From the NCBI GenBank assembly GCA_016930155.1, contig JAFGHL010000092.1, forward strand, positions 1-48,037: a DNA stretch of 48,037 nt, written 5' to 3'. This stretch comes from Dehalococcoidia bacterium (lineage in GTDB: Bacteria > Chloroflexota > Dehalococcoidia > GIF9 > UBA5629). Shown in pieces: positions 13,937 to 30,934 of this stretch; position 1 is the first letter of the stretch, and the number at the start of each line of letters is the position of its first letter. The translations under genes were made by a program, and so were the position numbers. Below the pieces are notes generated by a model. It did not search any database and had not been told where the DNA came from. It was given only the letters and a program-made list of their open reading frames with translations.

Positions 13937-13971
13937 TTGTTTTACACTGACGAAAACAGGGGGTAGCTCAC

Positions 13972-15680: not shown

Positions 15681-16592
15681 TCACCACATGTGCACCCATT
15701 TCCTGATCTCCGTCATGATTATTATGGTCTTTTTCTCAACGCCCTCCAGCGAATTGATGCGTTTGTTGAGAAATTCTGAGAAAGCTTCTATCGATTCAAA
15801 CCATGCCCATATGCCTATATCGTAATTGCCGGCTACCAAAAGGACCTGCCGGACCTCGTCCATAGCGGAGAAGTAGCCTGCAATGCGATCAAGAGCGCCG
15901 TTGTCGACTTTCAGGGCGATTACGGAAGTTACCATTTTACCTAAACGAACATTGGGGAAAGCCTGTATATGTATTACGTTACTACTTAATAGATTATTGA
16001 TTCTGCGTCTGATGGTTGCAGCACTGATATTGAGGCTTTTGGCCAGGCGGGTATTGCTCTGATGCGCATTCTTTTCAAGAGCTGTAATTATTTTTATATC
16101 GATATCATCCACCGGCTTGCCAATCATTTGACCACTGCCGCGAGTACCGGGAAGATTAATAAAGGCATACTTCCTATATTCCGTACAAATTGAGGTGTCG
16201 GTTTCCAGCACACCCTTCAGCGTGTATAACACGGTGTTTAAAAACCTTGAATAGGCCTCAACGGTAACAAACCAGCAGATCATAACCATGTTATAGTAGC
16301 CGGCGGCCAATGCCAGAAATCCAACCTCCCCTTGTTTTGTCAGAATATCAGCCGTATGTGATATGGCGTTATTATCAACTTTCAATAATATCGCTACGGT
16401 AAGTGAAGTCCTGGCACGGTTGATCTGCACTGCTTGTATACGTATGATATCCTCCCGGATCAGCCTGTTTACCCTGCGACGAACCGTAGGCGCACACATA
16501 TTAAGCGTTCCGGCCAGCTCCGCGCTGCTTACACAGGCATCCTTCTCCAGGGCAGCAATTATTTTTTTATCGATATCATCCATTTGCTTCAT
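15681..16592 (-). CDS. Tandem AsnC/Lrp-type transcriptional regulator (module 1)
   Basis: The start is set at the third Met of the track ORF (16592), which aligns with the paralogue at 28259; both are then exactly 303 aa. The protein is a head-to-tail duplication: winged HTH (DDIDKKIIAALEKDACVSS, APTVRRRVNRLI) plus a RAM-like effector domain, then a second HTH (DDIDIKIITALEKNAHQSN, AATIRRRINNLL) plus a second effector domain ending IRKWVHMW. It lacks the WPYN-type motif of AsnC-fold siroheme decarboxylases. It is divergent from the CoA-transferase pair and most likely controls it. A promoter at 16601-16629 would place the transcript start within a few bases of the ATG. Confidence 0.85.
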   Translation of the reverse strand: MKQMDDIDKKIIAALEKDACVSSAELAGTLNMCAPTVRRRVNRLIREDIIRIQAVQINRARTSLTVAILLKVDNNAISHTADILTKQGEVGFLALAAGYYNMVMICWFVTVEAYSRFLNTVLYTLKGVLETDTSICTEYRKYAFINLPGTRGSGQMIGKPVDDIDIKIITALEKNAHQSNTRLAKSLNISAATIRRRINNLLSSNVIHIQAFPNVRLGKMVTSVIALKVDNGALDRIAGYFSAMDEVRQVLLVAGNYDIGIWAWFESIEAFSEFLNKRINSLEGVEKKTIIIMTEIRKWVHMW

Positions 16593-16600
16593 GGCCTTCA

Positions 16601-16629
16601 TTAGTATCATATACTACTTATGCTGTAAA
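16601..16629 (-). promoter_or_regulatory. Promoter of module 1 AsnC regulator
   Basis: On the minus strand TTTACA (16629-16624) and TACTAA (16606-16601) are separated by 17 bp. The surrounding sequence TTGATCATTTCATTTACAG is repeated almost unchanged upstream of the paralogous regulator (28209-28227). Together with identical spacing to the divergent promoter this supports function. Confidence 0.6.
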
Positions 16630-16697
16630 TGAAATGATCAATTTGTTCATTTTTCATATCAATCCGATAATTTTGCTATATATTATTGAACAAATCA

Positions 16698-16725
16698 TTG
16701 ACTTGCCAAAAAACAGTGTTATCAT
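16698..16725 (+). promoter_or_regulatory. Promoter of module 1 CoA-transferase pair
   Basis: TTGACT (16698-16703) and TATCAT (16720-16725) are spaced 16 bp. The context ATCATTGACTTG and ATGCAAATACC is conserved in module 2. TTGAACAAATCA immediately upstream overlaps a region likely bound by the divergent regulator. Confidence 0.6.
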
Positions 16726-16790
16726 GCAAATACCTGTAAAAATTCATCACAACCGCAAAGTACAACGCTACTGTATTCTGGAGCAGGCAG

Positions 16791-18032
16791 ATGAATTCAC
16801 TACTTGACAGGATTAGAGTATTAGATCTGACCGACGACAGGGGTTTTCTCTGCGGGCGGATACTCGCAGAGATGGGTGCCGATGTTATAAAGGTTGAAAA
16901 ACCCGGAGGCGATCCCGCGCGCAATATCGGCTCGTTCTATCACGATGAGAATGATCCCGAGAAAAACTTGAACTGGTTCGCGTACAATTTGAACAAACGG
17001 GGCATAACGCTTGATATCGCTTCAAATGATGGGTGGACGATCTTCCTCAAGTTAATCAAAAAGTCAGATATTGTAATTGAGTCATTTCCTGCCGGTTACA
17101 TGCAGCAAATGGGGCTTGATTACGTAGTACTTAAAGCGATGAATCCTCGAATAATTATGACCTCCATCACACCTTTCGGGCAGACAGGCCCTTACAGGGA
17201 TTTTGCTGCTTCCGATATCGTCGTTCAGGCCATGAGCGGCTACCTGCATCTTTGCGGGGACCCCGGCCACCCCCCGGTGCGTATAAGCATCCCGCAGGCA
17301 TACCTGCATGCCTGCGGCGAAGCTGCCATAGCTACAATGATGGCGCTTTATCATCGGGAAAGCAGCGGAGAAGGACAGTATGTGGATGTTTCAGCGCAAC
17401 AGAGCATAGTCAGGAATACTGTAAATGCTGTCCCTTTATGGCTGACCTATGGTGAAATACTGGAGCGCTCCGGAGCATTCAGAGTCGGGCTCGGCAAAAA
17501 CCTGCGTGCGAGGCAAACGTGGGCCTGCAAAGATGGCTTTGTTAACTTTCTGTTCGTGGGAGGGATATTAGCGTCGGTAGCCGGGTCTTCGGGATTAACC
17601 GATTGGCTCGAGGAAGAGGGCATTTCAACCGATTATAAGAATAGATTGAAAGATTTCGATATATCCAAATTTACGCAGGAAGAGTGGGAGCAGATGGAGG
17701 CCCCGGTGGTAAAACTGTTCATGAAATATACAAAACAAGAGCTGTTTGACGAGGGTAATAAAAGGAGGGTCAGTATCTGTCCGGTTCATTCTCCCGAAGA
17801 GGTGGTGAACTACCCGCAACTGGAAGCCAGAGGATTCTGGACGGAGATCAGGCATGAGGAACTCGGCGCCGCAATCAAATATCCCGGAAGCTGCATCAGA
17901 TCCACTGCGATGCCTGCCGGTCAACTTCGCAGGGCGCCGCTTATCGGTGAGCATAACGTGGATGTCTATCACGGTGAGCTGGGACTATCCGAAGACGAGA
18001 TCGCAAGATTAAAGCAACTAAAAATAATTTAA
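16791..18032 (+). CDS. Family III (CaiB/BaiF) CoA-transferase subunit lacking catalytic Asp, module 1
   Basis: 413 aa, GGAG 9 nt before the ATG. CaiB/BaiF fold from start to end: RVLDLTDDRGFLCGRILAEMGADVIKVEKP, NLNKRGITLD, TPFGQTGPY, CGDPGHPP, GEGQYVDVSAQQS, C-terminal RAPLIGEHN. Anchored on the ALYHR..GEGQ segment, the position of the formyl-CoA transferase nucleophile (Asp169) is Tyr171. The protein is therefore probably not catalytic alone and acts with the Asp-containing partner 12 bp downstream, in the manner of two-subunit enzymes such as benzylsuccinate CoA-transferase BbsEF. It has a close paralogue at 26748-27992. The acid substrate is unknown. Confidence 0.88.
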   Translation: MNSLLDRIRVLDLTDDRGFLCGRILAEMGADVIKVEKPGGDPARNIGSFYHDENDPEKNLNWFAYNLNKRGITLDIASNDGWTIFLKLIKKSDIVIESFPAGYMQQMGLDYVVLKAMNPRIIMTSITPFGQTGPYRDFAASDIVVQAMSGYLHLCGDPGHPPVRISIPQAYLHACGEAAIATMMALYHRESSGEGQYVDVSAQQSIVRNTVNAVPLWLTYGEILERSGAFRVGLGKNLRARQTWACKDGFVNFLFVGGILASVAGSSGLTDWLEEEGISTDYKNRLKDFDISKFTQEEWEQMEAPVVKLFMKYTKQELFDEGNKRRVSICPVHSPEEVVNYPQLEARGFWTEIRHEELGAAIKYPGSCIRSTAMPAGQLRRAPLIGEHNVDVYHGELGLSEDEIARLKQLKII

Positions 18033-18044
18033 TATGAAGTAATT

Positions 18045-19250
18045 ATGAGCAAACTGCCGCTGGAAGGAGTCAAGGTCCTTGATTTTACCTGGGTGATCGC
18101 AGGGCCACTTATTACGAAATGCCTTGCCGATTACGGTGCGACCGTGGTGAGAGTCGAATCCATGGCTCGCCCCTGTTTTCTGCGTGTATCGGGACCGTTT
18201 AAGGACCGTGTTGTCGGACCCGACAACACCACCTACTTCGCTTATTTTAATCCAAATAAATACAGCGCCTCTTTAAACCTGAAAAAACCGGTGGGGCTGC
18301 GGACAGCCCGGAAGCTGGCTGATTGGGCGGACATAATAGTGGATAATTACGTGCCGGGCAAACTGGCAAAACTCGGACTGGATTACGAGAGCGTAAAAAA
18401 AATAAACCCGGATATTATAATGCTCAGCACTTCGGGACAGGGCCAGTCGGGGCCGATGGCGGGAATCCCGATGACAGGCATGATCCTGGTAGCGCTCACT
18501 GGATTCATGTTCTTCAGCGGTTGGCCGGGCGAAGAAAGCACTCAGCCATTTGGGCCTGTGAACGATTTTATCACCCCTTCATTCGGCGTCCCGGCAATCC
18601 TGGCTGCTCTCCGTCACAGGAAATTGACCGGCGAGGGGCAATCCATAGATCTGTCACAACTTGAAGCCGGAATCCAATTTCTGGCGCCCGGCATACTGGA
18701 TTACACCGCTAACGACAGGCAAATCGGAAACGTCGGTAATTCGTCTCCTGATGCCGCTCCACATGGAGTCTACCCCTGCGCTGACAACAGGTGGTGCGCC
18801 ATAGCGGTTTTTTCAGACAACGAATGGAAATCGCTCTGTACGGCCCTGGAGCATACCGAGGCGGCCGACGATCCTTTGTTCAGCACTTTCCCAGGCAGGA
18901 AAAGAAACGAAGATGAACTCAATAAAATGGTCGGCCAATGGACCATCAAACATACTCCTGAATATATCATGCTCACGCTTCAGCGCGCCGGTGTACAGGC
19001 GGGAGTGGTAAAGAACTCCAGGGACGTCTGCGAAGACCCTCAGCTTAAAGCGCGCAATCATTTCTGGAACATGAACCATCCCGTCATGGAAGATTGCATC
19101 TGCTTTGGTGAGCCTTCCATACTATCGGAAACCCCCGCCCGGCTGCTCAGGCCCTCCCCCTGTTTGGGCGAACATACCGAATTTGTCGCTACCGAGTTCC
19201 TGAATATGTCCGGGCAAGAGCTTATCGAACTTTTATCAGATGAAAGCTGA
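18045..19250 (+). CDS. Family III CoA-transferase catalytic subunit, module 1
   Basis: 401 aa, start 12 bp after the partner gene with a weak ribosome site, so translational coupling is likely. CaiB/BaiF landmarks: GVKVLDFTWVIAGPLITKCLADYGATVVRVE, NPNKYSASLNLK, GQGQSGPMAG, GEGQSIDLSQLEAG. In PVNDFITP Asp174 falls at the catalytic position, in contrast with its partner. The reaction would move CoA from a donor acyl-CoA to a carboxylic acid through an Asp-CoA anhydride intermediate. It is closely related to the gene at 25530-26735 and to the fossil at 30688-30864. A 12-bp perfect palindrome GACTCGCGAGTC (19249-19260) overlaps the stop region. Confidence 0.9.
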   Translation: MSKLPLEGVKVLDFTWVIAGPLITKCLADYGATVVRVESMARPCFLRVSGPFKDRVVGPDNTTYFAYFNPNKYSASLNLKKPVGLRTARKLADWADIIVDNYVPGKLAKLGLDYESVKKINPDIIMLSTSGQGQSGPMAGIPMTGMILVALTGFMFFSGWPGEESTQPFGPVNDFITPSFGVPAILAALRHRKLTGEGQSIDLSQLEAGIQFLAPGILDYTANDRQIGNVGNSSPDAAPHGVYPCADNRWCAIAVFSDNEWKSLCTALEHTEAADDPLFSTFPGRKRNEDELNKMVGQWTIKHTPEYIMLTLQRAGVQAGVVKNSRDVCEDPQLKARNHFWNMNHPVMEDCICFGEPSILSETPARLLRPSPCLGEHTEFVATEFLNMSGQELIELLSDES

Positions 19251-19321: not shown

Positions 19322-19855
19322 TCAGGGTAACGCCGCATCCGTCCAGCGGTCATAATGCACCCTCTCCTCCCTGAACCTGTCCTCACCATGCGGTTTTTCA
19401 TCAGCATATCCGAGGGAAACCAGCGCTATAGGAATAACGTGCTCCGGTATATCAAGTAACTTTCTTGTCTTTTCTATGCGCTCCTGCACCGGGAAAATTC
19501 CCACCCAGACCGCTCCCAACCCCAGGGCATGGGCAGCCAGCAGGATATTCATCGTAGCGGCAGCGCAGTCGAGCGGACCCCGGCCGGCGTTGACTTCAAA
19601 GGTTGGATCCTCACAAACCAGTATGGCCAGAGCCGCCTGGTCAAGCATATATGAGAATGTATGGATTTTGGATACCCGGCTGAGGATTGTACGGTCTTTG
19701 ATCACCACAAACTGCCAGGGTTGCTCGTTAGCTGAAGAAGGCGCAGCCATTGCCGCCTGTAACAATTGCTTCACGACGTCAGCGGCCACCGGCCTGTCAG
19801 TGTATTTTCGGATGCTCCTGCGTGTCAATATACATTCGATGGTATCCATGCACAT
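19322..19855 (-). CDS. Nitroreductase-family flavoprotein
   Basis: 177 aa. N-terminal ILTRRSIRKYTDRPV, AAMAAPSSANEQPWQFVVI, mid-domain DCAAATMNILLAAHALGLGAVWVG and C-terminal IPIALVSLGYADEKP are classical nitroreductase FMN-binding features. It is likely an NAD(P)H-dependent reductase of an enoyl, quinone or nitro substrate; substrate unknown. The start may be the second Met (MDTIECIL), which matches family N-termini better. It lies last in the minus-strand gene train from module 2 and converges with the module 1 CoA-transferase, so it may provide a redox step in the same pathway. Confidence 0.88.
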   Translation of the reverse strand: MCMDTIECILTRRSIRKYTDRPVAADVVKQLLQAAMAAPSSANEQPWQFVVIKDRTILSRVSKIHTFSYMLDQAALAILVCEDPTFEVNAGRGPLDCAAATMNILLAAHALGLGAVWVGIFPVQERIEKTRKLLDIPEHVIPIALVSLGYADEKPHGEDRFREERVHYDRWTDAALP

Positions 19856-19898
19856 CTCACCCTATCCACAGATTATATTTACAGTTCCGGGCATATCT

Positions 19899-20249
19899 TC
19901 ACATAGGAGGTTTGGCCGGCTTGAACCCGTCCGACGCCTCAACCGGCATGAAAAGCATGCCCAGGCACATGGCTTTCCCGGTCTCATCGAACCTGAGGGT
20001 GGAGGTGGCGCCGCCGCCCAGGGCTTTATACATGACCACCTGCAGAGCGTCGATGTTGGGCATCTCGTATACCTTGACTTCGCCTTTGACCAGATCTTTG
20101 TAATGGTCCTTGACCTTTTGCGGCGTAACCTGCTTTTTTATGATCTCGTAGTTCTCTTTATTGAACGCTATTATCCCCACGTTGGAGATATCGCCTTTAT
20201 CGCCGCTGCGGACATAAGCCAGTTCTTTAATCAGTACTTTCTTGCTCAT
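19899..20249 (-). CDS. AtuA-like ferredoxin-fold subunit
   Basis: The track starts at 20315, but ATG at 20249 (MSKKVLIKELAYVRSGDKGD) with GAGG upstream follows the preceding stop by 2 bp and gives the normal length, 116 aa. The phrases AYVRSGDKGDISNVGIIAF and ALGGGATSTLRFDETGKAMC are typical of the small C-terminal domain of AtuA (acyclic terpene utilisation) family proteins. In many genomes this domain is fused to the large one; here it is a separate subunit. No reaction is firmly established for the family outside terpene catabolism. Confidence 0.85.
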   Translation of the reverse strand: MSKKVLIKELAYVRSGDKGDISNVGIIAFNKENYEIIKKQVTPQKVKDHYKDLVKGEVKVYEMPNIDALQVVMYKALGGGATSTLRFDETGKAMCLGMLFMPVEASDGFKPAKPPM

Positions 20250-20251
20250 CT

Positions 20252-21616
20252 TTATTCTAGCCTCTTCATAATAAAACTTGTTGGAACTTCTTCGCGTGGT
20301 ATCAGTGTCGGCCACAACGATATGTAGCTTCTCGGCTTTGAGGGAACGGACACTGTAAAACCCACCGGCGACATGTCCAGGAAAGACACGGCTATCATGC
20401 CCGCCTCGAGCGGGTTTTTACCCCTGGCCGCTACCCGCAGGCAGAGTTCATTAATCTGGTCTTCATCCGGCATGGGGACTATGGACTTGAGTATCGAATT
20501 TATACCAACGTAGTCGATCTGCACGTCCACGTCCTCACGCTTCATACCGTATTTGGCCAGGTTCTTCCAGCCCAGCTCCTCTACTCTTTTCGCTTTGGTC
20601 AAAGCTTTAGGCGCAGAGATGTAGTTCATGGTCTCCGCTATAAATCCTCCCGGATAACCTATAATCACCTTGAGTGTATCAGGCCTGCGTTTGCCGGTCA
20701 TATTGCTCAGCCTGACCCTGTTGTTGCCCAGGTCCTCCACCTTAACCGCCGTCATATCGGCCACGCCGTCCGGCATAATGTAGTTTTTAGGATCATGCAC
20801 CTCATAAACCAGCTGGCTTTTGACGGTCCATTCGTTGAGCAGGCCGCCTCCCGATGACGGCATCTCCAGTATCGCTGTACCATCCTCGCAAACCTCGGCC
20901 AGCGGGTAGACGATCTCATTCGGCTTTGGTACGTGTTCCCACACCGGGCTGGCCACTCCCGTAACGAAATCGGCGCATTCCAGCGTGTGTCCGATGGTTA
21001 TGGCGGCGCCAATGCGCGGCCAGTATGCGTCTTCAAATTTCCATCCGAACTCGTGCATCATAGGCGCCACGAAAAGCGCGCTGTCCGAACACCTTCCTGC
21101 CACTACCACGTCGGCGCCGGCTTCCAGGGCGGCGATAATGGAATCGGAACCGATGTAAGCATTGGCGATCAGGATATTGTCTTTGATCTGGCTGATATCG
21201 TCCTCGCCCGTCTCCAGGTTGGTGAATTTCCATCCTTTCTTGAGCAGCTCATCGATCCTGCCAGCAATGTTGTCGCCTTTGATCACGGCAACTTTCAAGC
21301 CCTGGATATTGCTTTCAGCGGCTATCTTGAGTATCTGGTCCGCCGCAGCTTCAGGATTGACGCCGCCGCCGTTGGTGATGATTTTAACACCCCTCTTGTG
21401 AGCTTCAGGCAATACCTGCTTCATACCATCGATGTGCTGGGTCAGGTAGCCCTTGGTGGGATCCTTCTGCTGGTTCTTGGACATGATGGACATGGTTAGC
21501 TCGGCCAGCTGGTCGAAGCAGATGTAATTTAAATTTCCTTCCCTGACGAGCCTCAGGGCTTCTCCCGTCTTGGAAGGCGCGTAGCCCGAACCCGCTCCGA
21601 TCCTGATTTTCTTCAC
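20252..21616 (-). CDS. AtuA-like (DUF1446) protein, large subunit
   Basis: 454 aa from GTG with AAGGAG upstream. It matches the acyclic terpene utilisation AtuA/DUF1446 family: IRIGAGSGYAPSKTGEALRLV, ITNGGGVNPEAAA, VVVAGRCSDSALFVAPMMHEFGW, IGHTLECADFVTGV, PSSGGGLLNEWTVKSQLVYEVHDP. AtuA was described in the citronellol/geraniol degradation cluster, but relatives occur in many acyl-CoA catabolic operons. Its small partner follows after 2 bp. Location downstream of a TRAP transporter and crotonase suggests a role in breakdown of the imported acid. This is context inference, not a proven reaction. Confidence 0.87.
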   Translation of the reverse strand: MKKIRIGAGSGYAPSKTGEALRLVREGNLNYICFDQLAELTMSIMSKNQQKDPTKGYLTQHIDGMKQVLPEAHKRGVKIITNGGGVNPEAAADQILKIAAESNIQGLKVAVIKGDNIAGRIDELLKKGWKFTNLETGEDDISQIKDNILIANAYIGSDSIIAALEAGADVVVAGRCSDSALFVAPMMHEFGWKFEDAYWPRIGAAITIGHTLECADFVTGVASPVWEHVPKPNEIVYPLAEVCEDGTAILEMPSSGGGLLNEWTVKSQLVYEVHDPKNYIMPDGVADMTAVKVEDLGNNRVRLSNMTGKRRPDTLKVIIGYPGGFIAETMNYISAPKALTKAKRVEELGWKNLAKYGMKREDVDVQIDYVGINSILKSIVPMPDEDQINELCLRVAARGKNPLEAGMIAVSFLDMSPVGFTVSVPSKPRSYISLWPTLIPREEVPTSFIMKRLE

Positions 21617-21646
21617 TTTAACGCTCCTTCTAAATTCATTGATTGA

Positions 21647-22462
21647 CTAAATACCTTTAAATACGGGCTTTCTCTTCTCGAGAAAAGCCTTTGTGCCTTC
21701 TCTGAAATCCTCTGTATTAAAGCAGATGTTCATTGCCAGGTTTTCGTTAAATAACTGCCTGGTTAACTCCTCATTGAACAAACGGTAAACCGTGCGATGG
21801 GTCAACTCGATCGACACCGAGGGCATCGCGGCTATTTTGCCCGCAAAGTCAAGGGCTGTTTTCATCAACTCTTCATGTGGAACAACCTGTGTAACAAGGC
21901 TTATCCGCTTTGCCTCGGCCGCGTCGATTGCCTCACCAGTATAAAATAGCTTCAGTGCATTATCAACCCCCACTATCCTCGGCAGCCAGTAACTTGCGCC
22001 CGCATCCGGCATTAATCCTATTCTTACCCATGAAGCTACGAATCTGGCTTTTTCTGAAGCTATGCGGAAGTCACACAACAGCGCCAGCGAAAGGCCCGAG
22101 GCGGCAGCGACACCGTTAACAGCGGCAATTACGGGTTTCCCCAGGTCCATAATCGCGTGGGGCATCACAATCATGCCGGGTTCCAGAAGCTCTGAGCGGG
22201 ATTTCTCCAGCGCTTTATAACCGCCGTCTCCTATCCGTTCTTTGAGCCGGCCGGCAGCATCAGCGCCGGCGCAGAAGCCTTCGCCGCTGCCCGTGATAAT
22301 CAGCACCTTGATATCATCCCTTTTTCTGGCCTGCTCCAGTATCTTGACAAAGCTCTCACCCATCGTGCTGGTGATCGCATTTCTCCTCTCCGGCCGATTG
22401 AGAGTGATAACGCCAATCCCGTTGTCGCATTCGAATAACAGTTCGTCTGTCGGATTATCCAT
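21647..22462 (-). CDS. Enoyl-CoA hydratase/isomerase (crotonase), PaaG-like
   Basis: The track extends to 22783 through the upstream TRAP gene. ATG at 22460-22462 has AGGAGG 9 nt upstream and gives 271 aa. Crotonase features are LNRPERRNAIT, the oxyanion-hole phrases GSGEGFCAGAD and AVNGVAAASGLSLALLCDFRIAS, and IGLMPDAGASYWLPRIVG. The last resembles PaaG isomerases (GLIPDxGG..LPR), where the Asp is catalytic, rather than hydratases with a Glu there. The likely activity is double-bond isomerisation or hydration of an acyl-CoA produced by the CoA-transferases. It lies 17 bp downstream of the TRAP permease gene. Confidence 0.9.
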   Translation of the reverse strand: MDNPTDELLFECDNGIGVITLNRPERRNAITSTMGESFVKILEQARKRDDIKVLIITGSGEGFCAGADAAGRLKERIGDGGYKALEKSRSELLEPGMIVMPHAIMDLGKPVIAAVNGVAAASGLSLALLCDFRIASEKARFVASWVRIGLMPDAGASYWLPRIVGVDNALKLFYTGEAIDAAEAKRISLVTQVVPHEELMKTALDFAGKIAAMPSVSIELTHRTVYRLFNEELTRQLFNENLAMNICFNTEDFREGTKAFLEKRKPVFKGI

Positions 22463-22479
22463 TGTTTGCATCCTCCTGT

Positions 22480-23784
22480 TCAGTTGCGCATCATATCGGG
22501 CAGGAACGTTGCCACCTGCGGGAAAAAGAAAACAATGAGCACGCCCACGATTATCAGTGCGACAAACGGCGCCGTCCCCATAATGATTCTTTTCATGGGG
22601 ATATCCGGAGCTATAGTCTTCATCACGAACAGGTTCAGCCCGACGGGAGGCGTCAGGTTGCCTATCATCATACACATTGTGACTAAAACCCCGTACCAGA
22701 TAAAGTCGATGTTCAGGATTCTCATAACCGGGACCAGCGTCGGCAGGGTGAGCACCAGAATCCCGGCAGGATCGAGCAGGCAACCGAGTAAAACGAAAAT
22801 AAACATGGTCAGTATCACAAAGGCGGTATTTGATATACCGCTCTTGACTATGGTTTCAGCGATCAGTTGCGGTATACCCAGGTAAGTGAGCAGATATGAA
22901 AAGGTAAAGGCGGAAAACAGGATGAAAATAATGAAGCATGAGATCCGGGCCGCGCTGAATAAAACGTCCCGCAGGCTGCGCCAGGTCAGCTTTCTGTATA
23001 CGGCTGCGATAACCAGGGAGAGAAAAGCGCCCACGCAGGCGCTTTCGGTCGGCGTGCAGATACCTGCATAGATTGACCCCAGCACACCTACCGCGATCAA
23101 TATGAATACCCAGATGTTCTTCAGCGATGCAAACCGGTCACGCCAGGTAACGTCGGACATGGCAGGTTCCACATCCTGAGGCCTGAATTTTGCGTAGACC
23201 AGAATATAAATAACGAAAACTACTGTGGTTACCATTCCGGGCAAGATACCCGCGATAAACAATTTACCGATGGATTCCTCGGTCAGCAGGCCGTATATGA
23301 TGAACATTGCGCTGGGGGGAATGATAATGCTCAGGGTTCCGGCGGCCGCAATTATGCCGGCCGCAAAACCGCCGTTATATCCGTGTTTCTTGAGTTGCGG
23401 CATAGCCGCCAGCCCTATGGTAGCGGTGCCTCCGGAACTGCTGCCGCAGCAGGCTCCGAACAACATGCCCGCAACTGAAGCTGTTGCCCCGAGGCCGCCG
23501 CGCACCCGGTTAAACCATTTGCTCCCCGCATCAAACGCCTGTTCGGCTACGCCGCTTTTGCTTAAAAGCTCCGCCATGACGACAAACATTGGAACCAGTA
23601 CCAGTGTAGAGTCCGTGCCGAATTTATAACTTATCACCGCCAATTGTGATAAGGCGTTTGGTCCTATGAAAATCCAGATCCCCAGCAGGCTGCTCAGGCC
23701 AATCGCAAAGGCGATCGGCATACCGACAAGAATCAACAAAACCAGAAAGGCGAACAGCAGTATCCCGATGATGCCAATGTCCAC
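22480..23784 (-). CDS. dctM: TRAP transporter large permease (DctM)
   Basis: 434 aa, GTG start sharing one base with the dctQ stop (TAGTG). About twelve hydrophobic helices with DctM signatures: LVGMPIAFAIGLSSLLGI, LVPMFVVMAELLSKSG, GACCGSSSGGTATIGLAAMP, IIPPSAMFIIYGLLTEESIGKLFIAGILPG, TPTESACVGAF, LTPPVGLNLFV. It couples sodium or proton gradient to uptake of an organic acid delivered by the periplasmic or lipid-anchored binding protein. It sits between dctQ and the crotonase in a minus-strand operon. Confidence 0.93.
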   Translation of the reverse strand: MDIGIIGILLFAFLVLLILVGMPIAFAIGLSSLLGIWIFIGPNALSQLAVISYKFGTDSTLVLVPMFVVMAELLSKSGVAEQAFDAGSKWFNRVRGGLGATASVAGMLFGACCGSSSGGTATIGLAAMPQLKKHGYNGGFAAGIIAAAGTLSIIIPPSAMFIIYGLLTEESIGKLFIAGILPGMVTTVVFVIYILVYAKFRPQDVEPAMSDVTWRDRFASLKNIWVFILIAVGVLGSIYAGICTPTESACVGAFLSLVIAAVYRKLTWRSLRDVLFSAARISCFIIFILFSAFTFSYLLTYLGIPQLIAETIVKSGISNTAFVILTMFIFVLLGCLLDPAGILVLTLPTLVPVMRILNIDFIWYGVLVTMCMMIGNLTPPVGLNLFVMKTIAPDIPMKRIIMGTAPFVALIIVGVLIVFFFPQVATFLPDMMRN

Positions 23785-24311
23785 TATATTTCTTCTTCCA
23801 CTTTATTTGCCGTATCCGGCAGTATGCCTGCTATGGCACCGGCAAGCAGCAGGATGTATTGAAAGAGTAAAACGAGCAGCCCGAAAGGGATCACCGCATA
23901 AAAAGGCCATAACGTTACTTCCAGTCTCGTTCTTGAAACCCAATGCAGGCTGTAGCTATCCCATGCCAGCGCCGCGCTCTTCCACAGCCATAAGGCGACA
24001 AACACAATCCCCAGTACATCAACGATGATTGCCAGTACTTTTCTGGGCTGCGGCTTCAGCAGCGTGGGGATCAGATCTATCTTGATGTGACCGCCCGTTT
24101 CAAGTGTGTATGCCGCCGATAGGAAAGTAGCCGTTAAAAGTATGTACGAAGATATTTCCAGAGTCCAGGCCGTTGGCGCTTTTAACGCATATCGTACAAC
24201 GACCTCATATACGGTTAGAAATATGATGATGAGGAACCCGATACCTGAGATGGAGGCGCAGATTTTATTGAATTTACTCAGCGCCGGCTGTATTCTGAAA
24301 TTATTTATCAC
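23784..24311 (-). CDS. dctQ: TRAP transporter small permease (DctQ)
   Basis: 175 aa from GTG. Four transmembrane helices with the DctQ pattern: SGIGFLIIIFLTVYEVVVRYALKAPTAW (R-Y-x-x-x-x-P-x-x-W), then TATFLSAAYTLETGGHIKIDLI. It forms the membrane complex with DctM, whose start overlaps this stop by one base, so translation is probably coupled. It lies 60 bp downstream of the binding-protein gene, a gap with only a weak hairpin. Confidence 0.9.
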   Translation of the reverse strand: MINNFRIQPALSKFNKICASISGIGFLIIIFLTVYEVVVRYALKAPTAWTLEISSYILLTATFLSAAYTLETGGHIKIDLIPTLLKPQPRKVLAIIVDVLGIVFVALWLWKSAALAWDSYSLHWVSRTRLEVTLWPFYAVIPFGLLVLLFQYILLLAGAIAGILPDTANKVEEEI

Positions 24312-24371
24312 AGCTATTTAATTCCATATATATTTTTTATCAGGGAAGCGTGTCCTGTCGGACTAGACCTG

Positions 24372-25433
24372 CTAATAACCCGCACCGTGTTTCCTGTATA
24401 TGTCTGTAAGCTGCTGCGCCTCAGGGCTGGATGCAGCATATTTGTCCCAGATGGCTTTAGCCGGCGCTTTCCAGAGCTTGATTTCATCCGGGGTCGGGAC
24501 ATACATGGTCTCTCCCATTTCAGGTAATTCCTTGCGGCCTTTCTCGATATTTGCACCGTTTACCTGCAAAACAACTCTCATGAACTCGGGAGTGACCTTA
24601 CCGATCGCTTCCTGGTCTGCGCTCGATATCTTGTTCCACTTGTCCTTATTTATGTAGAACAGGAAGCCTCCGGTTCCGATGTCAAGGTCACAATAATACG
24701 GGGCGACTTCGGGCAACTTGAAAGCCACCATGGACGGAACTGAAAGAAGCGTGCCGTCCGAAACACCGTATTGTATGGACTGGTACATTTCGGACGTCGG
24801 GAGGGTAACCGTGCTGCATCCCCAACCGGATATCAGCTCATCCATGGCGCCACCGGCGGATCTGATTTTGAGCCCTTTGGCTTCGGCAGGTACATGGACC
24901 GCTTTCTTTGTTGCCAGGCCGTATGCCGACGGGGCGCATGCATACCAGTTAATATGAATATTGTATTTTTCAAAACCTTTCTGGATTATGGGCAATCCTT
25001 CCTCAGCCGCCGCCAAATTGCTTTCTATATCAGATATTCCCACCCAGGGAAGCGCCCCAACATTGGCAAGAGGTACCTGGCCGACCACATAGTTGATTAC
25101 GGTCATGGCTGCGTCCACGCTGCCGCTGTTTACCGCAGCCAGCTCTTCCGCGCCCGGGCAAAGCGATTCGCCCGGATTGACAACGATTTTCACTCTTCCT
25201 TCAGTGGCTTGCAGGACTGCCGCGGCATATAATTGCGCTATAGTGGCATATGTATTACCCGCCGGGTACATGGTTGCAGCCACAAGGGTGATCGGCTCCT
25301 GCACGGCTGCTTGAGACGCATCGGTTTCCGATGGTTTGGTTGTCTGAGCTGCGGGCGCTCCGGCGCAGGCAGCGGAAATATATAGAATTACCAATGCCAG
25401 CGCGCATATGGTGACGATTGCTTTGTTTCTCAT
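24372..25433 (-). CDS. dctP: TRAP transporter substrate-binding protein (DctP)
   Basis: 353 aa with GGAGG upstream of the ATG. The N-terminal hydrophobic signal ends at ISAACAG, a plausible though imperfect lipobox, followed by a Thr/Ser/Gln-rich linker. The mature region shows DctP features: GRVKIVVNPGESLCPGAEELAAV (binding-site region), GLKIRSAGGAMDELISGWGCSTVTLPTSEMYQSIQYGVSDGT, and KWNKISSADQEAI. The substrate would be an organic acid; the usual carboxylate-binding Arg may be the one in KIRSAGG. It lies 96 bp downstream of the CoA-transferase pair on the same strand, suggesting that the acid imported is the one activated to its CoA thioester. Confidence 0.9.
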   Translation of the reverse strand: MRNKAIVTICALALVILYISAACAGAPAAQTTKPSETDASQAAVQEPITLVAATMYPAGNTYATIAQLYAAAVLQATEGRVKIVVNPGESLCPGAEELAAVNSGSVDAAMTVINYVVGQVPLANVGALPWVGISDIESNLAAAEEGLPIIQKGFEKYNIHINWYACAPSAYGLATKKAVHVPAEAKGLKIRSAGGAMDELISGWGCSTVTLPTSEMYQSIQYGVSDGTLLSVPSMVAFKLPEVAPYYCDLDIGTGGFLFYINKDKWNKISSADQEAIGKVTPEFMRVVLQVNGANIEKGRKELPEMGETMYVPTPDEIKLWKAPAKAIWDKYAASSPEAQQLTDIYRKHGAGY

Positions 25434-25529
25434 TGATACCCTCCATCTGTATTGTTCTCGTCATTTTCTATCATTGTCTTTTACAAAGTTGATTCATCTT
25501 CTAATTTACCATATGCGCCTCCTCAAATA

Positions 25530-26735
25530 TCAGGATCCTTCACTGGTTAACAATTTTATCAATTCATCTTCTGAAAGAGATAAAATCTCGCTGGCTACAA
25601 GCTCCGTATGCTCACCCAGGCAGGGAGCCGGCATACGGGGTTGCGCCGGCGTCTCCGACAGTATTGCCGCCTCGCCCAGATGCAGACAATCACCTATCGC
25701 AGGATGCTGCATAAGCCAGAAATGGTTGCGCGCTTTCAACTGCGGGTCTTCACACACATCTTTAGCGCTCTCCACGATGCCTGCCTGCACTCCTGCCGTC
25801 TGCAGCAGGCTCATTACGCTTTCAGGCGTCCTCTTTTTTGTCCATTGCCCGACCAGATCGTTAAGCTCCTCTTCGTTTTTCTTCCTGTTCTCTAATATAT
25901 CGAACTTTGGATTGTCAGCCAAAGAAGGATCGCCCATGGCGGCGCAAAAAGACCTCCACTCGGCAGAGGAGAATACCGCTATTGCACACCATCTGTTATC
26001 CAGACAGGGATAAACGCCATGCGGCGCCGCATACGGCGAAGTGTTGCCGACATTTTCCGGCAATCTGCTATTAGCAGTGTAATCCAGCATACCCGGCTCA
26101 AGGAACTGAATGCCCGCTTCCAGTTGCGAGATATCAATAAACTGCCCCTCACCCATTTTGCCCCGATATCTCAGTGCCGCCATGATAGCAGCAAGGCAGA
26201 AATAGGGAGTGACAAAATCATTGACCGGGCCAAAGGGTTGAACGCAATCCCGTCCCGGCCACCCGCTGAAACTATTGAACCCGGAAAGCGCTACCAGGAC
26301 GTTGCCTGACGTAGGCATCGGCGCCATCGGCCCGGTTTCCCCGAATCCCGAGGTGTTCAACATAATCACATCCGGATTGGTTACTCTTACTGTGTCATAA
26401 TCAAGGCCCAATCTCTTCATCACACCGGGTACGTAGTTGGTGACAACGATATCCGCCCAGTCTGCAAGCTTCCGGGCGACGTTGAGCCCGGCGGAACTTT
26501 TAAGATTCAATGCGATACTGTATTTGTTAGGATTATAATAAGCAAAATAGGCCGAATTATCGGGGCCGTTACCGTTTTTAAAAGGGGCGGAAGACCTGGT
26601 AAAACAGGGGCGTGTAATGGTTTCCACCCGTACAACTTTCGCGCCGTAATCAGCCAGGCCCTTCGTCACCAGTGGGCCTGCTATGACCCAGGTTAAATCA
26701 AGAACCTTTACTCCATCCAGCGCCTGCTTTCCCAT
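25530..26735 (-). CDS. Family III CoA-transferase catalytic subunit, module 2
   Basis: The track starts at 26747. Alignment with the module 1 paralogue favours the internal ATG at 26735 (MGKQALDGVKVLDLTW), giving 401 aa, identical in length to module 1. The full CaiB/BaiF fold is present with NPNKYSIALNLKS, GFGETGPMAPM and GEGQFIDISQLEAG. Asp173 in PVNDFVTP occupies the nucleophile position. The partner gene stops immediately before the track ATG (TGAATG), so the two are translationally coupled. Together they probably form a heteromeric CoA-transferase. Substrate unknown; it may differ from module 1. Confidence 0.9.
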   Translation of the reverse strand: MGKQALDGVKVLDLTWVIAGPLVTKGLADYGAKVVRVETITRPCFTRSSAPFKNGNGPDNSAYFAYYNPNKYSIALNLKSSAGLNVARKLADWADIVVTNYVPGVMKRLGLDYDTVRVTNPDVIMLNTSGFGETGPMAPMPTSGNVLVALSGFNSFSGWPGRDCVQPFGPVNDFVTPYFCLAAIMAALRYRGKMGEGQFIDISQLEAGIQFLEPGMLDYTANSRLPENVGNTSPYAAPHGVYPCLDNRWCAIAVFSSAEWRSFCAAMGDPSLADNPKFDILENRKKNEEELNDLVGQWTKKRTPESVMSLLQTAGVQAGIVESAKDVCEDPQLKARNHFWLMQHPAIGDCLHLGEAAILSETPAQPRMPAPCLGEHTELVASEILSLSEDELIKLLTSEGS

Positions 26736-26747
26736 ACCGTTTTCCAT

Positions 26748-27992
26748 TCAAATTATTTTGTGCAGTTTAAATTTGTCGATCTCCGCCGGCGATAAGCCGA
26801 GCTCACCGCAAAAGACCTCCAGATTGTGCTCGCCGATCAGAGGCGCCCTTCTAAATTTAATGGCGGGCATCGCAGGGAACCGCATACAACCGGCGGGATA
26901 CTTGATCACACAGCCGAGTTCCGGATGTTCCACATCCACCCAGAAATTTCTTTCCCTGAGCTGAAAAAAATCCACCACCTCCGCCGGATTTAATACCGGA
27001 CAGATAGGCATGTGCCTTTTCAAGGCTTCCCTGAATAGCTCCTTTTTAGTATATCTCGCAAAAAACTCGGCTACCGGGGCTTCGAGTTGCTCCCACTCTT
27101 CCTGTGTAAACCTGGTTACGTCAAAGTTGTCCCAATCCATCTCCTCTCTCTGTTTGGTGGACAGGCCTTCTTCTTTGAGCCATTCAGCAAGTATTTTGTT
27201 CATTACCGCTCCCGGCGCACCCCCGAATATGACGAAATTAACCAGACCGTCTTTGCATGGCCATGTTTGGCGAGCACGGGTGCCGCTGCCCAACCCCACC
27301 CTGTATGCGCCTGACCTTTCCAAAATCATCCCATAATTAAACCACAGGGAGTTAGCGTTTACCGTGTTCCTGACCATGCTCTGTTGCGCCGATACATCGA
27401 TATACTGCCCTTCTCCTGTGACGTCCCTGTGGTAAAGGGCAATTAAAGCAGCCACCGCCGCTTCCCCGCCTGCAAATAAAGGCGATTGCGGCAAACTAAC
27501 GCGTAACGGGGGACGGTCAGGATCTCCGCAGATATATAAATATCCACTCATCCCCTGGACGATAAGATCCGAACCTGTGAATTTGTTGTAAGGCCCGGTC
27601 TGCCCGAAAGGCGTGATAGACGCCATGATAATGTCCGCCCTGACTTTCCTCAGCTCGGGATAGTCCAGACCTATCTCTTTCATATATCCGACTGGATAGG
27701 ATTCCACAACGATATCAGACTTTTTCACAAGCTGCTTGAAAAGCTCCCGGCCATCCCCGGTTGTGATATCGAGGGTTATACCTCTCTTATTCAGGTTATA
27801 AGCAAACCAGGTCAGGCTTTTCTCGGGATCAGGTATATCGTGATAAAAGGGGCCTATACTGCGGGAAGCATCGCCTCCCGGCCTTTCAACCTTTATAACA
27901 TCAGCCCCCAGCTCGGCAATCATCCGTCCACATAGAAAACCATTTTCGTCGGTCAGGTCAAGCACGCGTATGCCATCAAGTAGCGTTTTCAT
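26748..27992 (-). CDS. Family III CoA-transferase subunit lacking catalytic Asp, module 2
   Basis: ATG 27992 (MKTLLDGIRVLDL) aligns exactly with the module 1 start; the track's 28001 adds three residues. 414 aa. CaiB/BaiF features are GFLCGRMIAELGADVIKVERPGG, NLNKRGITLD, TPFGQTGPY, CGDPDRPP, GEGQYIDVSAQQS and RAPLIGEHN. At the nucleophile position it has Pro171 (LPQSPLFAGGEA), while the module 1 homologue has Tyr171. Both alpha-type subunits have thus lost Asp in different ways while the partners keep it. It is the first gene of a minus-strand train reaching the nitroreductase at 19322. Confidence 0.88.
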   Translation of the reverse strand: MKTLLDGIRVLDLTDENGFLCGRMIAELGADVIKVERPGGDASRSIGPFYHDIPDPEKSLTWFAYNLNKRGITLDITTGDGRELFKQLVKKSDIVVESYPVGYMKEIGLDYPELRKVRADIIMASITPFGQTGPYNKFTGSDLIVQGMSGYLYICGDPDRPPLRVSLPQSPLFAGGEAAVAALIALYHRDVTGEGQYIDVSAQQSMVRNTVNANSLWFNYGMILERSGAYRVGLGSGTRARQTWPCKDGLVNFVIFGGAPGAVMNKILAEWLKEEGLSTKQREEMDWDNFDVTRFTQEEWEQLEAPVAEFFARYTKKELFREALKRHMPICPVLNPAEVVDFFQLRERNFWVDVEHPELGCVIKYPAGCMRFPAMPAIKFRRAPLIGEHNLEVFCGELGLSPAEIDKFKLHKII

Positions 27993-28124
27993 CAGGCCCA
28001 TTCTCTATAACGAAAAGCTTAAATACGAGACTACCACCAACCATGTTTTCTATTGCTATGCCTTAGAGTCCCATCCCGGTATTTGGCCGTAGCCGAAACA
28101 GTATCTCCAGTTATGGATATATGC

Positions 28125-28152
28125 ATGTTATCATTAATTTCATACAAGTCAA
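28125..28152 (-). promoter_or_regulatory. Promoter of module 2 CoA-transferase/TRAP operon
   Basis: On the minus strand TTGACT (28152-28147) and TAACAT (28130-28125) are spaced 16 bp. Flanks ATCATTGACTTG and ATGCATATATCC match the module 1 promoter. The leader to the ATG at 27992 is about 125 nt. This promoter lies inside the track ORF 28031-28216, which is therefore rejected. Confidence 0.6.
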
Positions 28153-28220
28153 TGATATGTTTATCTTCATCTAATATTTTTATCATATTGATCAATAAAC
28201 TATTATCTTTGATCATTTTA

Positions 28221-28250
28221 TTTACAGTACTCAGTAATATATGGTATTAA
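28221..28250 (+). promoter_or_regulatory. Promoter of module 2 AsnC regulator
   Basis: TTTACA (28221-28226) and TATTAA (28245-28250) are spaced 18 bp. The preceding TTGATCATTTTATTTACAG (28209-28227) differs from the module 1 element at a single position. A further TTGATCAA palindrome lies at 28189-28196. The predicted transcript start is within a few bases of the ATG at 28259. Confidence 0.6.
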
Positions 28251-28258
28251 TATTGATT

Positions 28259-29170
28259 ATGCATCAGCTGGACGAAATCGATAAGAAAATAATCAGCGTG
28301 CTGGAAGTAGACGCTCATATGAGCAGTATGCAAATGTCAAAACAGCTCAATGTATGCGCTCCAACTATTCGTCGCAGGATAAACAGGCTTATAAAAAACG
28401 ATATTATGCGAATACAGGCGGTTCAAATTAATCGTGCCAAAATATCGATAGCAGTTACCATTTTGCTCAAAGTGGAAAGCAATGCGATCACCCGGACGGC
28501 TGATTTATTAGCGAGTCAGAAAGAAGTGGGTTTCATAGTATTGACTGCCGGCTATTTCAACATAGTCTGCCTGGGCTGGTTCGAATCTGTAGAATCCTAT
28601 TCCAGGTTTTTAAATACAATACTTTATCCAATAAACGGCGTACTCGATATGGACACTTTGATTTGCACTGAATACAGGAAATATGCGTTCATTAAAATGA
28701 ACGGAGCTGCCAATCAAATCAAACCGGCTAATAAGCCGGTTGATGACATCGATATGAGAATAATCGAAGCGCTGGAAAAAGATGCACGCCAAAAGAGCAC
28801 CAGGCTGGCAAAAAGTCTCAATATTAGCGCTCCCACCATCAGATGCAGGATAAACGACCTGCTGAATAATAATATTATTCATATACAGGCTTTCCCAAAC
28901 TTGCGTATGGGTAAAACAATTGCAGCTGTAATAGCCTTGAAAGTAGCTAACGGCGCAGTTAACCGCATTGCAGATTGTCTATGTGATCTGAATGAAGTCA
29001 GACAGGTATTACTATACTCAGGCACTTACGACATAGGTGTATGGGCCTGGTTTGAATCTATCGAAGCTTTCTCCGAGTTCCTGAAGAATGTTATCAATCC
29101 TCTGGAAGGTGTTGAAAAAAAGGAAATTTCCATTCAAACAGAGATCAGGAAATGGGTACATATGTGGTAA
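28259..29170 (+). CDS. Tandem AsnC/Lrp-type transcriptional regulator (module 2)
   Basis: 303 aa from ATG 28259; the track's 28241 ATG lies upstream of or within the predicted -10. There are two consecutive HTH-plus-effector units: DEIDKKIISVLEVDAHMSS with APTIRRRINRLI, and DDIDMRIIEALEKDARQKS with APTIRCRINDLL. The C-terminus IRKWVHMW is identical to module 1. The ATG has no Shine-Dalgarno (ATATTGATT precedes), consistent with a leaderless or near-leaderless mRNA. It is divergent from the CoA-transferase/TRAP operon, so it is probably its regulator, perhaps sensing the acid or its CoA ester. An MFS carrier follows after 45 bp. Confidence 0.86.
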   Translation: MHQLDEIDKKIISVLEVDAHMSSMQMSKQLNVCAPTIRRRINRLIKNDIMRIQAVQINRAKISIAVTILLKVESNAITRTADLLASQKEVGFIVLTAGYFNIVCLGWFESVESYSRFLNTILYPINGVLDMDTLICTEYRKYAFIKMNGAANQIKPANKPVDDIDMRIIEALEKDARQKSTRLAKSLNISAPTIRCRINDLLNNNIIHIQAFPNLRMGKTIAAVIALKVANGAVNRIADCLCDLNEVRQVLLYSGTYDIGVWAWFESIEAFSEFLKNVINPLEGVEKKEISIQTEIRKWVHMW

Positions 29171-29215: not shown

Positions 29216-30526
29216 TTGAGATCAACTGATTGTCCGCACAATTTCAACGGCACACGCAAACCTCTTTTTTATGGTTGGATCATTGTAATTGTTTGCGCCA
29301 TCCAGCAGGCCCTGCAAAACGGCATACAGTATAGTTTCGGAATTTTTTTTAAGCCCCTGGTTGCAGATTTCGGGTGGACCCGCGCTTCCCTTTCCGGCGT
29401 ATACGCTTTGTCCATGATCAGCGGAGGACTGTTTGCCATACCCGCCGGGTGGCTGGCGGATAGAATCGGCCCTGCTAAAATAGCGTTAATCTACGGCACC
29501 CTGATCGGCCTGGGACTGATATTGAGCAGCCGGATCACCGACCTGGTACAACTTTATATTACATATGGCGTTATTTTCGGTATCGGCACCGGCGGAGTAT
29601 TTGCCGTTAGCAGCGGCATCACAGCCCGCTGGTTCTTCAAGAAACGCGGCCTCGCGTTAGGTATTGTCTCGGCAGGCGTTGGCTTCGGCATTCTCGTCAT
29701 GCCGCCGGCAAACGAATATTTAATTCGCGCTATCGGCTGGTCGAACTCTTACCTGATTATCGGGATCATGGCTTTGATCATTTTTATCGCAACCGCCCTG
29801 TTTTTGCGGCGTGATCCGAAAGACATAGGTTGTTTACCTTACGGCGCTGTGAAACCCGAACCGGAGGATACGCTTATTCAGGGACAAAAACCATATCACC
29901 CGGCGTTCGACGGGGGGATGACATTATGGAACGCCTGTTTCACCCCATCCCTCTGGATACTTATTTTCACCGCAGTTCTTGTCGGCGTCTGTACGCAAAT
30001 GATCTCGCTGCATCTGGTTAACTACGCTACCGACATCGGGATATCCCCGCTGACGGCTGCAACGATCATCTCCGTTATAGGGATTGGCGGCATCTTCGGC
30101 CGCCTACTGATTGGAAGCGGCTCGGACAGGATCGGTAATATTAATGCCATGATCCTGTGTATGGTGATACAAACCGCCAGCCTGATCTGGTTAATTTTCT
30201 CCAGCGACCTATGGATGCTCTATGTCTTTGCCGCGTTATTCAGCTTTGCCTTCGGTGGAGAAGTGCCTTTGTTGACACTGCTGGTCAGTGAGCAATTCGG
30301 CCTCCGGGCAGTGTCGGCCCTGGTAGGAGTTATGTTGCTTGCTACACGCCTCGGCGCTGCCCTGGGTTCCTGGATGGGCGGCCGGATATTCGATGCCACT
30401 GACAGCTATATTGTTGCTTTTATTATTGCATCGGCAGCCAGTACGATAGCAATGGTCGCTGTAATTGCCCTGAAGAAAATGAAAAAAAGCCTTTTCTCCC
30501 GGACAACAACCGGTCCGCAGGGCTGA
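29216..30526 (+). CDS. MFS transporter, monocarboxylate/oxalate-formate type
   Basis: 436 aa, apparently starting at TTG since no in-frame ATG occurs before the first helix. Twelve transmembrane helices. The N-terminal YGWIIVIVCAIQQALQNGIQYSFGIFFKPLVADFGWTRA segment, the loop GWLADRIGP and MISLHLVNYATDIGIS are typical of the monocarboxylate/OFA-like MFS group. Position directly after the regulator suggests it imports or exchanges a carboxylate handled by the CoA-transferases. Substrate unknown. A hairpin with TTACTGC/GCAGTAA arms follows at 30574-30590. Confidence 0.85.
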   Translation: MRSTDCPHNFNGTRKPLFYGWIIVIVCAIQQALQNGIQYSFGIFFKPLVADFGWTRASLSGVYALSMISGGLFAIPAGWLADRIGPAKIALIYGTLIGLGLILSSRITDLVQLYITYGVIFGIGTGGVFAVSSGITARWFFKKRGLALGIVSAGVGFGILVMPPANEYLIRAIGWSNSYLIIGIMALIIFIATALFLRRDPKDIGCLPYGAVKPEPEDTLIQGQKPYHPAFDGGMTLWNACFTPSLWILIFTAVLVGVCTQMISLHLVNYATDIGISPLTAATIISVIGIGGIFGRLLIGSGSDRIGNINAMILCMVIQTASLIWLIFSSDLWMLYVFAALFSFAFGGEVPLLTLLVSEQFGLRAVSALVGVMLLATRLGAALGSWMGGRIFDATDSYIVAFIIASAASTIAMVAVIALKKMKKSLFSRTTTGPQG

Positions 30527-30590: not shown

Positions 30591-30687
30591 AGCCTCGAGA
30601 TATAAGTTGAGGTAGTCTATGTTAACTCAAGCGCAGTCATTGATTGAGCTGCGGAGACGGCAGTATAATGGAGATCGGCCGCTCCGG

Positions 30688-30864
30688 AGTATGAAGCATC
30701 CCGTTATGGAAGATTATATTTGCTCTGGTGGGCCTGCTGTACTATCGGAAACTCCCACCCGGCTGCTCAGGCTGATCCCATGTTTGGACAAACATACGAG
30801 ATTTGTTATTCCCGGGTTTCTGAATATAGCCGGGCAGGAGCTTTTCGAGCTTTTATCAGATGCA
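30688..30864 (+). pseudogene. C-terminal remnant of a third CoA-transferase catalytic subunit
   Basis: Inside the track ORF 30619-30888 the translation MKHPVMEDYICSGGPAVLSE, TRLLRLIPCLDKHT and AGQELFELLSDA matches the last ~60 residues of the module 1 subunit (NHPVMEDCICFGEPSILSE, GQELIELLSDE) at roughly 70 percent by eye. It is somewhat less like module 2. The DNA is also recognisably similar. Nothing upstream of about 30688 resembles the rest of the enzyme, so this is a truncated fossil, probably left by recombination or deletion. It is closer to module 1 although it lies beyond module 2. Confidence 0.8.
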
Positions 30865-30934
30865 CACCGATCCCCCGGGCACAGGTAACAGGTTCAGGCA
30901 AGCGCAAAATCAAATATCGAAAGAGAGGGCTGTT

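Follow-up and report, generated by a model that had tools for sequence, protein, structure and literature searches.

Citramalate lyase is represented among solved structures by 9erq and 9evf, the latter entitled "Citramalate lyase - ADP - pyruvate complex". In the terpene (atu) pathway, the step assigned to AtuA is the cleavage of 3-hydroxy-3-isohexenylglutaryl-coenzyme A (CoA), which releases acetate (PMC4847356). The gene cluster of the mesaconase FumD holds a DUF1446 gene without explanation, and the fate of citramalate was left open there (PMC4682846). In the naphthalene thn operon, a CoA-transferase gene adjoins two AtuA-like lyase genes (PMC12016498). Proteins of the AtuA (DUF1446) family occur widely and mostly lack an assignment; the small partner carries the annotation "hypothetical". 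Here a two-part AtuA, formed by the chains AtuA and AtuFd, is described from contig JAFGHL010000092.1 (48,037 nucleotides, referred to as the window) of a Dehalococcoidia metagenome-assembled genome (MAG) of 2.6 Mb, 98% complete with 7.95% contamination. The closest named relative is the Dehalococcoidia MAG STA_11, with 94% identity in AtuA.

The pair is encoded in an operon of nine co-directional minus-strand genes (28001 to 19322). All nine are present as given in a preliminary description of the locus, and its labels are backed by family searches: Pfam and NCBIfam agree on DctP/Q/M, ECH_1, AtuA, AtuA_ferredoxin and Nitroreductase, and CaiB_A2 and CaiB_B2 are family III CoA-transferases. The operon lies in a larger island that probably degrades a branched unsaturated or hydroxylated dicarboxylate via CoA activation and citramalate-lyase-type cleavage. 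This reading draws on gene order, homology, the folds of both subunits, the status of active-site residues, conservation in a sister species and a shared promoter motif. The island combines known parts in a new arrangement; of most value is that the two-part AtuA can be assigned to a citramalate-lyase-type enzyme. Once both halves are tied to solved lyase chains, what was a vague guess at a pathway can be put to an enzyme assay, and uncultured Dehalococcoidia gain a concrete prediction about their metabolism.

Kinship of AtuA-AtuFd with citramalate lyase

Both chains, encoded by adjacent genes, exceed the curated cut-offs of their families, AtuA (PF07287) with 416 bits against 22.8 and AtuFd (PF23544) with 95 bits against 27, and so belong to the two-part AtuA/AtuA_ferredoxin family. 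The fold matches are of predicted single-chain models to one solved enzyme: the AlphaFold model of AtuA (predicted local distance difference test, pLDDT, 88) has 9evf_A as its sole match in the PDB at E <0.001 (template modelling score, TM, 0.70; E 6e-28), and the sole match of the AtuFd model (pLDDT 87.5) at the same threshold is 9evf_B (TM 0.66/0.71). That two subunits independently match the two chains of one enzyme is strong evidence of kinship with citramalate lyase. A profile of 19 AtuA proteins also matches 9erq by sequence (E 1.3e-7). For AtuFd, the sequence search against the PDB gave no match and fold comparison alone gave one.

The solved proteins are probably ECs_0760 and ECs_0759 of E. 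coli O157:H7, as judged from length, family and context. Their 456 and 105 residues equal the chain lengths of 9evf, they belong to the AtuA and DUF4387 families, and their genes lie between those for methylaspartate ammonia-lyase and fumarase. This context, which is the FumD cluster of PMC4682846 (methylaspartate ammonia-lyase, fumarase/mesaconase FumD), fits citramalate cleavage. ECs_0760 matches PF07287, and hhalign of the AtuA alignment against it gives a probability of 97%; with the 9evf_A match, the large subunit thus agrees with that of citramalate lyase (CmlAB) in fold and family. Both systems combine an AtuA-family large subunit with a small subunit of about 105-117 residues in adjacent genes, and the motifs GR..D..F..P, EC(A) and YE.DP are common to the two large subunits. 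The small subunit of CmlAB is of the DUF4387 family, whereas AtuFd belongs to PF23544, though its fold matches 9evf_B. A search of the genome for DUF4387 gave no match, a result that says little as the positive control of the search was also silent. The neighbours differ as well, being glutamate mutase, methylaspartate ammonia-lyase and fumarase/mesaconase in E. coli and CaiB, transporter and crotonase genes in the window.

The terpene AtuA and citramalate lyase both take an acetyl unit off a tertiary beta-hydroxy acid, and we therefore infer the same chemistry here. On the strength of the models, AtuA-AtuFd most likely splits a carbon-carbon bond in a tertiary beta-hydroxy acid, or in the CoA ester of such an acid, and sets free an acetyl unit. 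Since the pair itself is the likely cleavage enzyme, no thiolase is needed for this step. Thiolase-dependent beta-oxidation inside the operon was considered and rejected: as stated earlier, the operon has no thiolase or acyl-CoA dehydrogenase gene. That statement does not extend to the rest of the genome, which has many thiolase-family matches.

A proposed dicarboxylate pathway

In the proposed scheme a tripartite ATP-independent periplasmic (TRAP) system would import the acid, a CaiB pair of the BbsEF type would activate it with CoA taken from another acyl-CoA, and the crotonase would shift the double bond. AtuA-AtuFd, as a heteromeric retro-aldol/retro-Claisen lyase of the CmlAB type, would then cut the tertiary beta-hydroxy acid or CoA ester. 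The products would be an acetyl fragment, leaving as acetate or in activated form, together with an oxo-acid or 3-oxoacyl-CoA. What we infer from these parts is the reaction of the lyase, the sequence of the steps, the class of substrate and the origin of the hydroxyl. Uptake, CoA activation and PaaG-like isomerisation had already been suggested for the operon, and each is borne out at the level of its genes.

For uptake, the family search confirms DctP, DctQ and DctM. For activation, the best solved relatives of CaiB_A2 and CaiB_B2 are, one to one, 9fn0_A and 9fn0_B, the chains of benzylsuccinate CoA-transferase BbsEF. The region of the catalytic Asp reads PVNDF in the CaiB_B type, where the Asp is kept, and LPQ in the A type (LPQS in CaiB_A2, with Gln at the Asp position). 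Because of this replacement CaiB_A is probably non-catalytic, and the pair has the two subunit types, with Asp in the B type only, of a heteromeric family III CoA-transferase such as BbsEF. Its setting differs from that of BbsEF, as the genes downstream are entirely different and the island has two paralogous CaiB pairs. By sequence, then, the match to BbsEF tells the type of subunit and not the substrate.

Compared with reference fragments, the crotonase has Ser and Trp at the positions of Glu144 and Glu164 of rat ECHS1, and its MPDAGASY aligns with LVPDAG and LVPDSG of 2ej5 and 6sl9, so that the PaaG-type Asp motif (M/V)PD(A/S)G is kept; the Trp precedes this Asp. With the hydratase Glu pair missing and the PaaG-type Asp in place, a double-bond isomerase is likelier than a hydratase, and the enzyme is probably such an isomerase. 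A classical hydratase was rejected, both active-site Glu being absent. The Trp and Asp also align with Trp137 and Asp145 of 4-chlorobenzoyl-CoA dehalogenase, which is a lead only. Identity with that dehalogenase is not claimed: PaaG-like PDB entries match better, and in a hand comparison the position of the catalytic His90 is not His. The nitroreductase was put forward as a reduction step from its position, and no role is proposed for it here.

Several points weigh against the proposed scheme. Its weakest is hydration, a step without an enzyme inside the operon to judge from the residues of the crotonase. Candidate sources of the hydroxyl are the PrpD-family enzyme of the island, an atypical crotonase or direct import of a hydroxy acid. 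The identity of AtuA to citramalate lyase is just 17-22%, and the small subunits are in different Pfam families (PF23544 and DUF4387; hhalign probability 14%), so that transfer of the substrate from citramalate lyase is unsafe. The ADP in 9evf leaves ATP use and a CoA-like site indistinguishable in the present models. Close family members carry the AtuA pair without the rest of the operon. In the AtuA tree the first neighbours of the window are lone pairs from its family, followed by homologues linked to carboxylases or thiolases (support of the joining fork 89/86), and the citrate-carrier group described below is farther away than these homologues. This position speaks mildly for a CoA-ester substrate and lowers the certainty of free C5 acids.

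Substrate and AtuA neighbourhoods

The best guess for the substrate is a branched C5-C6 dicarboxylate, for example itaconate, mesaconate, citramalate or 3-methylglutaconate. A hand-picked, non-random neighbourhood sample, made up of the Budvicia locus and 17 plasmid loci (18 named loci with an AtuA pair), fits a lyase role by analogy. A transporter gene stands directly beside the pair in 15 of the 18. The neighbouring carriers are citrate-type (Budvicia, Azospirillum, Mycetohabitans, Paraburkholderia), or tricarboxylate, TRAP or ATP-binding cassette (ABC) systems; several of the loci have acyl-CoA carboxylases. In Budvicia aquatica (L018 8663-14297) and Azospirillum thermophilum (L073 5634-10080) a citrate-type carrier and the AtuA pair are followed by 3-oxoacid CoA-transferase, and Budvicia also has a thiolase. 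These gene sets are as expected for conversion of 3-hydroxy-3-methylglutarate to acetate and acetoacetate, and the comparison suggests use of the free acid at both loci. The nearest analogue of the window is the plasmid pPABY7 cluster of Salipiger abyssi (WP_076706342 to WP_076706349), which likewise combines TRAP genes, two CoA-transferases and an AtuA pair. It differs from the window in that its TRAP is TAXI-type and MaoC hydratases and a CoA-ester lyase replace the crotonase.

A wider proposal can be put forward tentatively, at somewhat less than even chances. Within the citramalate-lyase superfamily, AtuA-AtuFd may form a second branch whose substrates are tertiary beta-hydroxy dicarboxylates, either free or CoA-linked. 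It would replace thiolysis in an undescribed anaerobic dicarboxylate pathway of these Dehalococcoidia with two paralogous benzylsuccinate-type CoA-transferases. The citrate-carrier-linked pairs of Proteobacteria would then be lyases of free 3-hydroxy-3-methylglutarate.

A terpenoid acid, the lead offered by the preliminary description, is a less likely substrate. The AtuA pair would here act on a 3-hydroxy-3-alkylglutaryl-CoA derived from a longer 3-methyl-branched acid, as in Atu/Liu-like pathways, after a carboxylase encoded elsewhere. The likeness to the terpene pathway lies in PF07287, the crotonase in the operon and an acetate-releasing step without thiolase. The nearest AtuA relatives outside the family also include carboxylase-linked ones in Chloroflexota. 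The terpene pathway, however, has geranyl-CoA carboxylase, a ligase and an acyl-CoA dehydrogenase; no acyl-CoA carboxylase was found among the genes of the window island, which also has no such ligase or dehydrogenase, and its AtuA consists of two separate chains. Carboxylase genes do occur in the genome, on contig C86 (L028 5252-14542), where carboxyltransferase, biotin carboxylase, biotin carrier, crotonase, fused AtuA, acyl-CoA ligase and acyl-CoA dehydrogenase stand in a row (carboxyltransferase, biotin carboxylase and dehydrogenase labelled by eye from their N-termini, biotin carrier and ligase by Pfam). Going by these labels the row is the genome's own Atu/Liu-like operon, so the biotin-dependent carboxylase required by this reading exists but comes with a fused AtuA and a crotonase of its own; the window pair is about 32-34% identical to this fused copy. 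The TRAP system and the dicarboxylate-type CoA-transferase, too, would be better matched by a soluble dicarboxylate. The terpenoid lead is thus weakened, and we regard it as unlikely.

Still lower is the chance that the substrate is an aromatic-derived 2-substituted succinate resembling benzylsuccinate, or that the AtuA pair acts on a ring-opened dicarboxylate of a thn-like anaerobic ring route. BbsEF is the closest solved structure to the CaiB pair, a match which, as noted, speaks for the type of subunit. The thnP-thnQ-thnS genes of N47 and NaphS2, likened here by description and not by sequence, also come from anaerobes and join a CoA-transferase gene to a two-gene AtuA-like lyase. They belong, however, to an operon for ring degradation that also encodes reductases and thiolases, and among the island genes no other bbs-like genes, aryl-CoA reductase or radical synthase were found. 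Two further genomes of the family have the AtuA pair behind an amidohydrolase gene (L024 1568-4205, Amidohydro_2; L008 18-2667), an arrangement that recalls thnN and thnQ/thnS of the naphthalene operon.

The surrounding island

The operon frame of the preliminary description is too narrow, as the nine genes sit inside an island of roughly 17 kb (15.7-32.3 kb; Table 1). Absent from that description were a paralogous CaiB pair (16791-19250, plus strand), two tandem-Lrp regulators, a major facilitator superfamily (MFS) carrier and a PrpD-family gene. The island holds an inverted paralogous duplication of the unit double-length Lrp - CaiB_A - CaiB_B (15681-19250 and 25530-29170) that flanks the TRAP, crotonase and AtuA genes. 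Each of the two regulators is made up of two full Lrp units. The short spacing reported for the operon is borne out, with gaps of at most 96 bp.

Table 1. Features of the island; gaps and overlaps are with the preceding gene of the operon
Feature	Position	Strand	Remarks
Lrp1	15681-16610	-	Double-length Lrp/AsnC regulator, paralogue of Lrp2
Divergent promoter region Lrp1/CaiB_A1	16611-16790		Motif as at CaiB_A2; core 16694-16728
CaiB_A1	16791-18032	+	Paralogue of CaiB_A2
CaiB_B1	18045-19250	+	Paralogue of CaiB_B2, 66% identity
Nitroreductase	19322-19855	-	Small nitroreductase-family flavoprotein; 43-bp gap
AtuFd	19899-20249	-	Small subunit, PF23544; 4-bp ATGA overlap with AtuA
AtuA	20252-21616	-	Large subunit, PF07287; 30-bp gap
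Crotonase	21647-22471	-	Crotonase-fold enzyme; start ATG 22471; 8-bp gap
DctM	22480-23784	-	TRAP large permease; 1-bp overlap
DctQ	23784-24311	-	TRAP small permease; 60-bp gap
DctP	24372-25433	-	TRAP solute-binding protein; 96-bp gap
CaiB_B2	25530-26747	-	Family III CoA-transferase subunit; 0-bp gap
CaiB_A2	26748-28001	-	Family III CoA-transferase subunit
Divergent promoter region CaiB_A2/Lrp2	28002-28240		TGATCAAT elements and promoter-like core ATCATTGACTTG..ATAACATGCA, 28122-28156
Lrp2	28241-29170	+	Double-length Lrp/AsnC regulator: two helix-turn-helix and two ligand-binding units
MFS transporter	29216-30526	+	Lactate / oxalate-formate type
Decayed CaiB_B 3' end	30683-30862	+	80% to CaiB_B1; 5' of PrpD
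MmgE/PrpD-family protein	30860-32305	+	Nearest solved: iminodisuccinate epimerase, cis-aconitate decarboxylase

Upstream of CaiB_A1 and CaiB_A2 lie TGATCAAT elements and a promoter-like core, ATCATTGACTTG then TTATCATGCA or ATAACATGCA. The full core occurs at only two places in the window, both of them CaiB_A promoters, and a search for the shared motif before DctP, where an internal promoter might lie, found it absent. The unrelated control named in the preliminary description as counter-evidence is not seen: a common motif stands in both CaiB promoters, and their regulators Lrp1 and Lrp2 are paralogous. As part of the dicarboxylate reading, the island is probably an inducible catabolic unit.

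A second MAG, a sister species of the same genus, consists of short contigs in which gene order can be read per contig and not across the whole island. The order DctP-DctQ-DctM-crotonase-AtuA-AtuFd is identical there (protein identity 91-95%), as is that of CaiB_B2-CaiB_A2 divergent from Lrp2-MFS. The ratio of nonsynonymous to synonymous divergence (dN/dS) between window and sister is 0.04-0.13 in every gene tested, and these genes are therefore under constraint. The cluster is a real unit and more than chance. In the sister genome the CaiB_B1 pair is followed directly by PrpD and then by the nitroreductase orthologue (89% identical). In the window PrpD comes after the MFS gene, with 180 bp of a decayed CaiB_B 3' end in front of it, a scar of former CaiB_B-PrpD adjacency and of an old rearrangement of the island. 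PrpD and the nitroreductase are thus mobile members of the island, and the nitroreductase is not fixed in the operon. Recent transfer of the TRAP-AtuA module, considered from synonymous divergence, was rejected because control genes are equally variable.

That the AtuA pair, the TRAP system and the CaiB proteins have separate functions and are neighbours by chance is the least probable explanation, since, although several genomes of the family have the pair by itself and the nitroreductase and PrpD relocate between species, the gaps are very short with coupled starts, the order is conserved in the sister species, and the Salipiger abyssi plasmid has an analogous cluster of TRAP, two CoA-transferases, MaoC, CoA-ester lyase and AtuA pair.

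Beyond the island, at 12341-15654 on the plus strand of the window, an aspartate 4-decarboxylase gene adjoins that of an aspartate:alanine antiporter, and both products exceed their NCBIfam cut-offs. Together these two proteins form a classical proton-motive decarboxylation pair.

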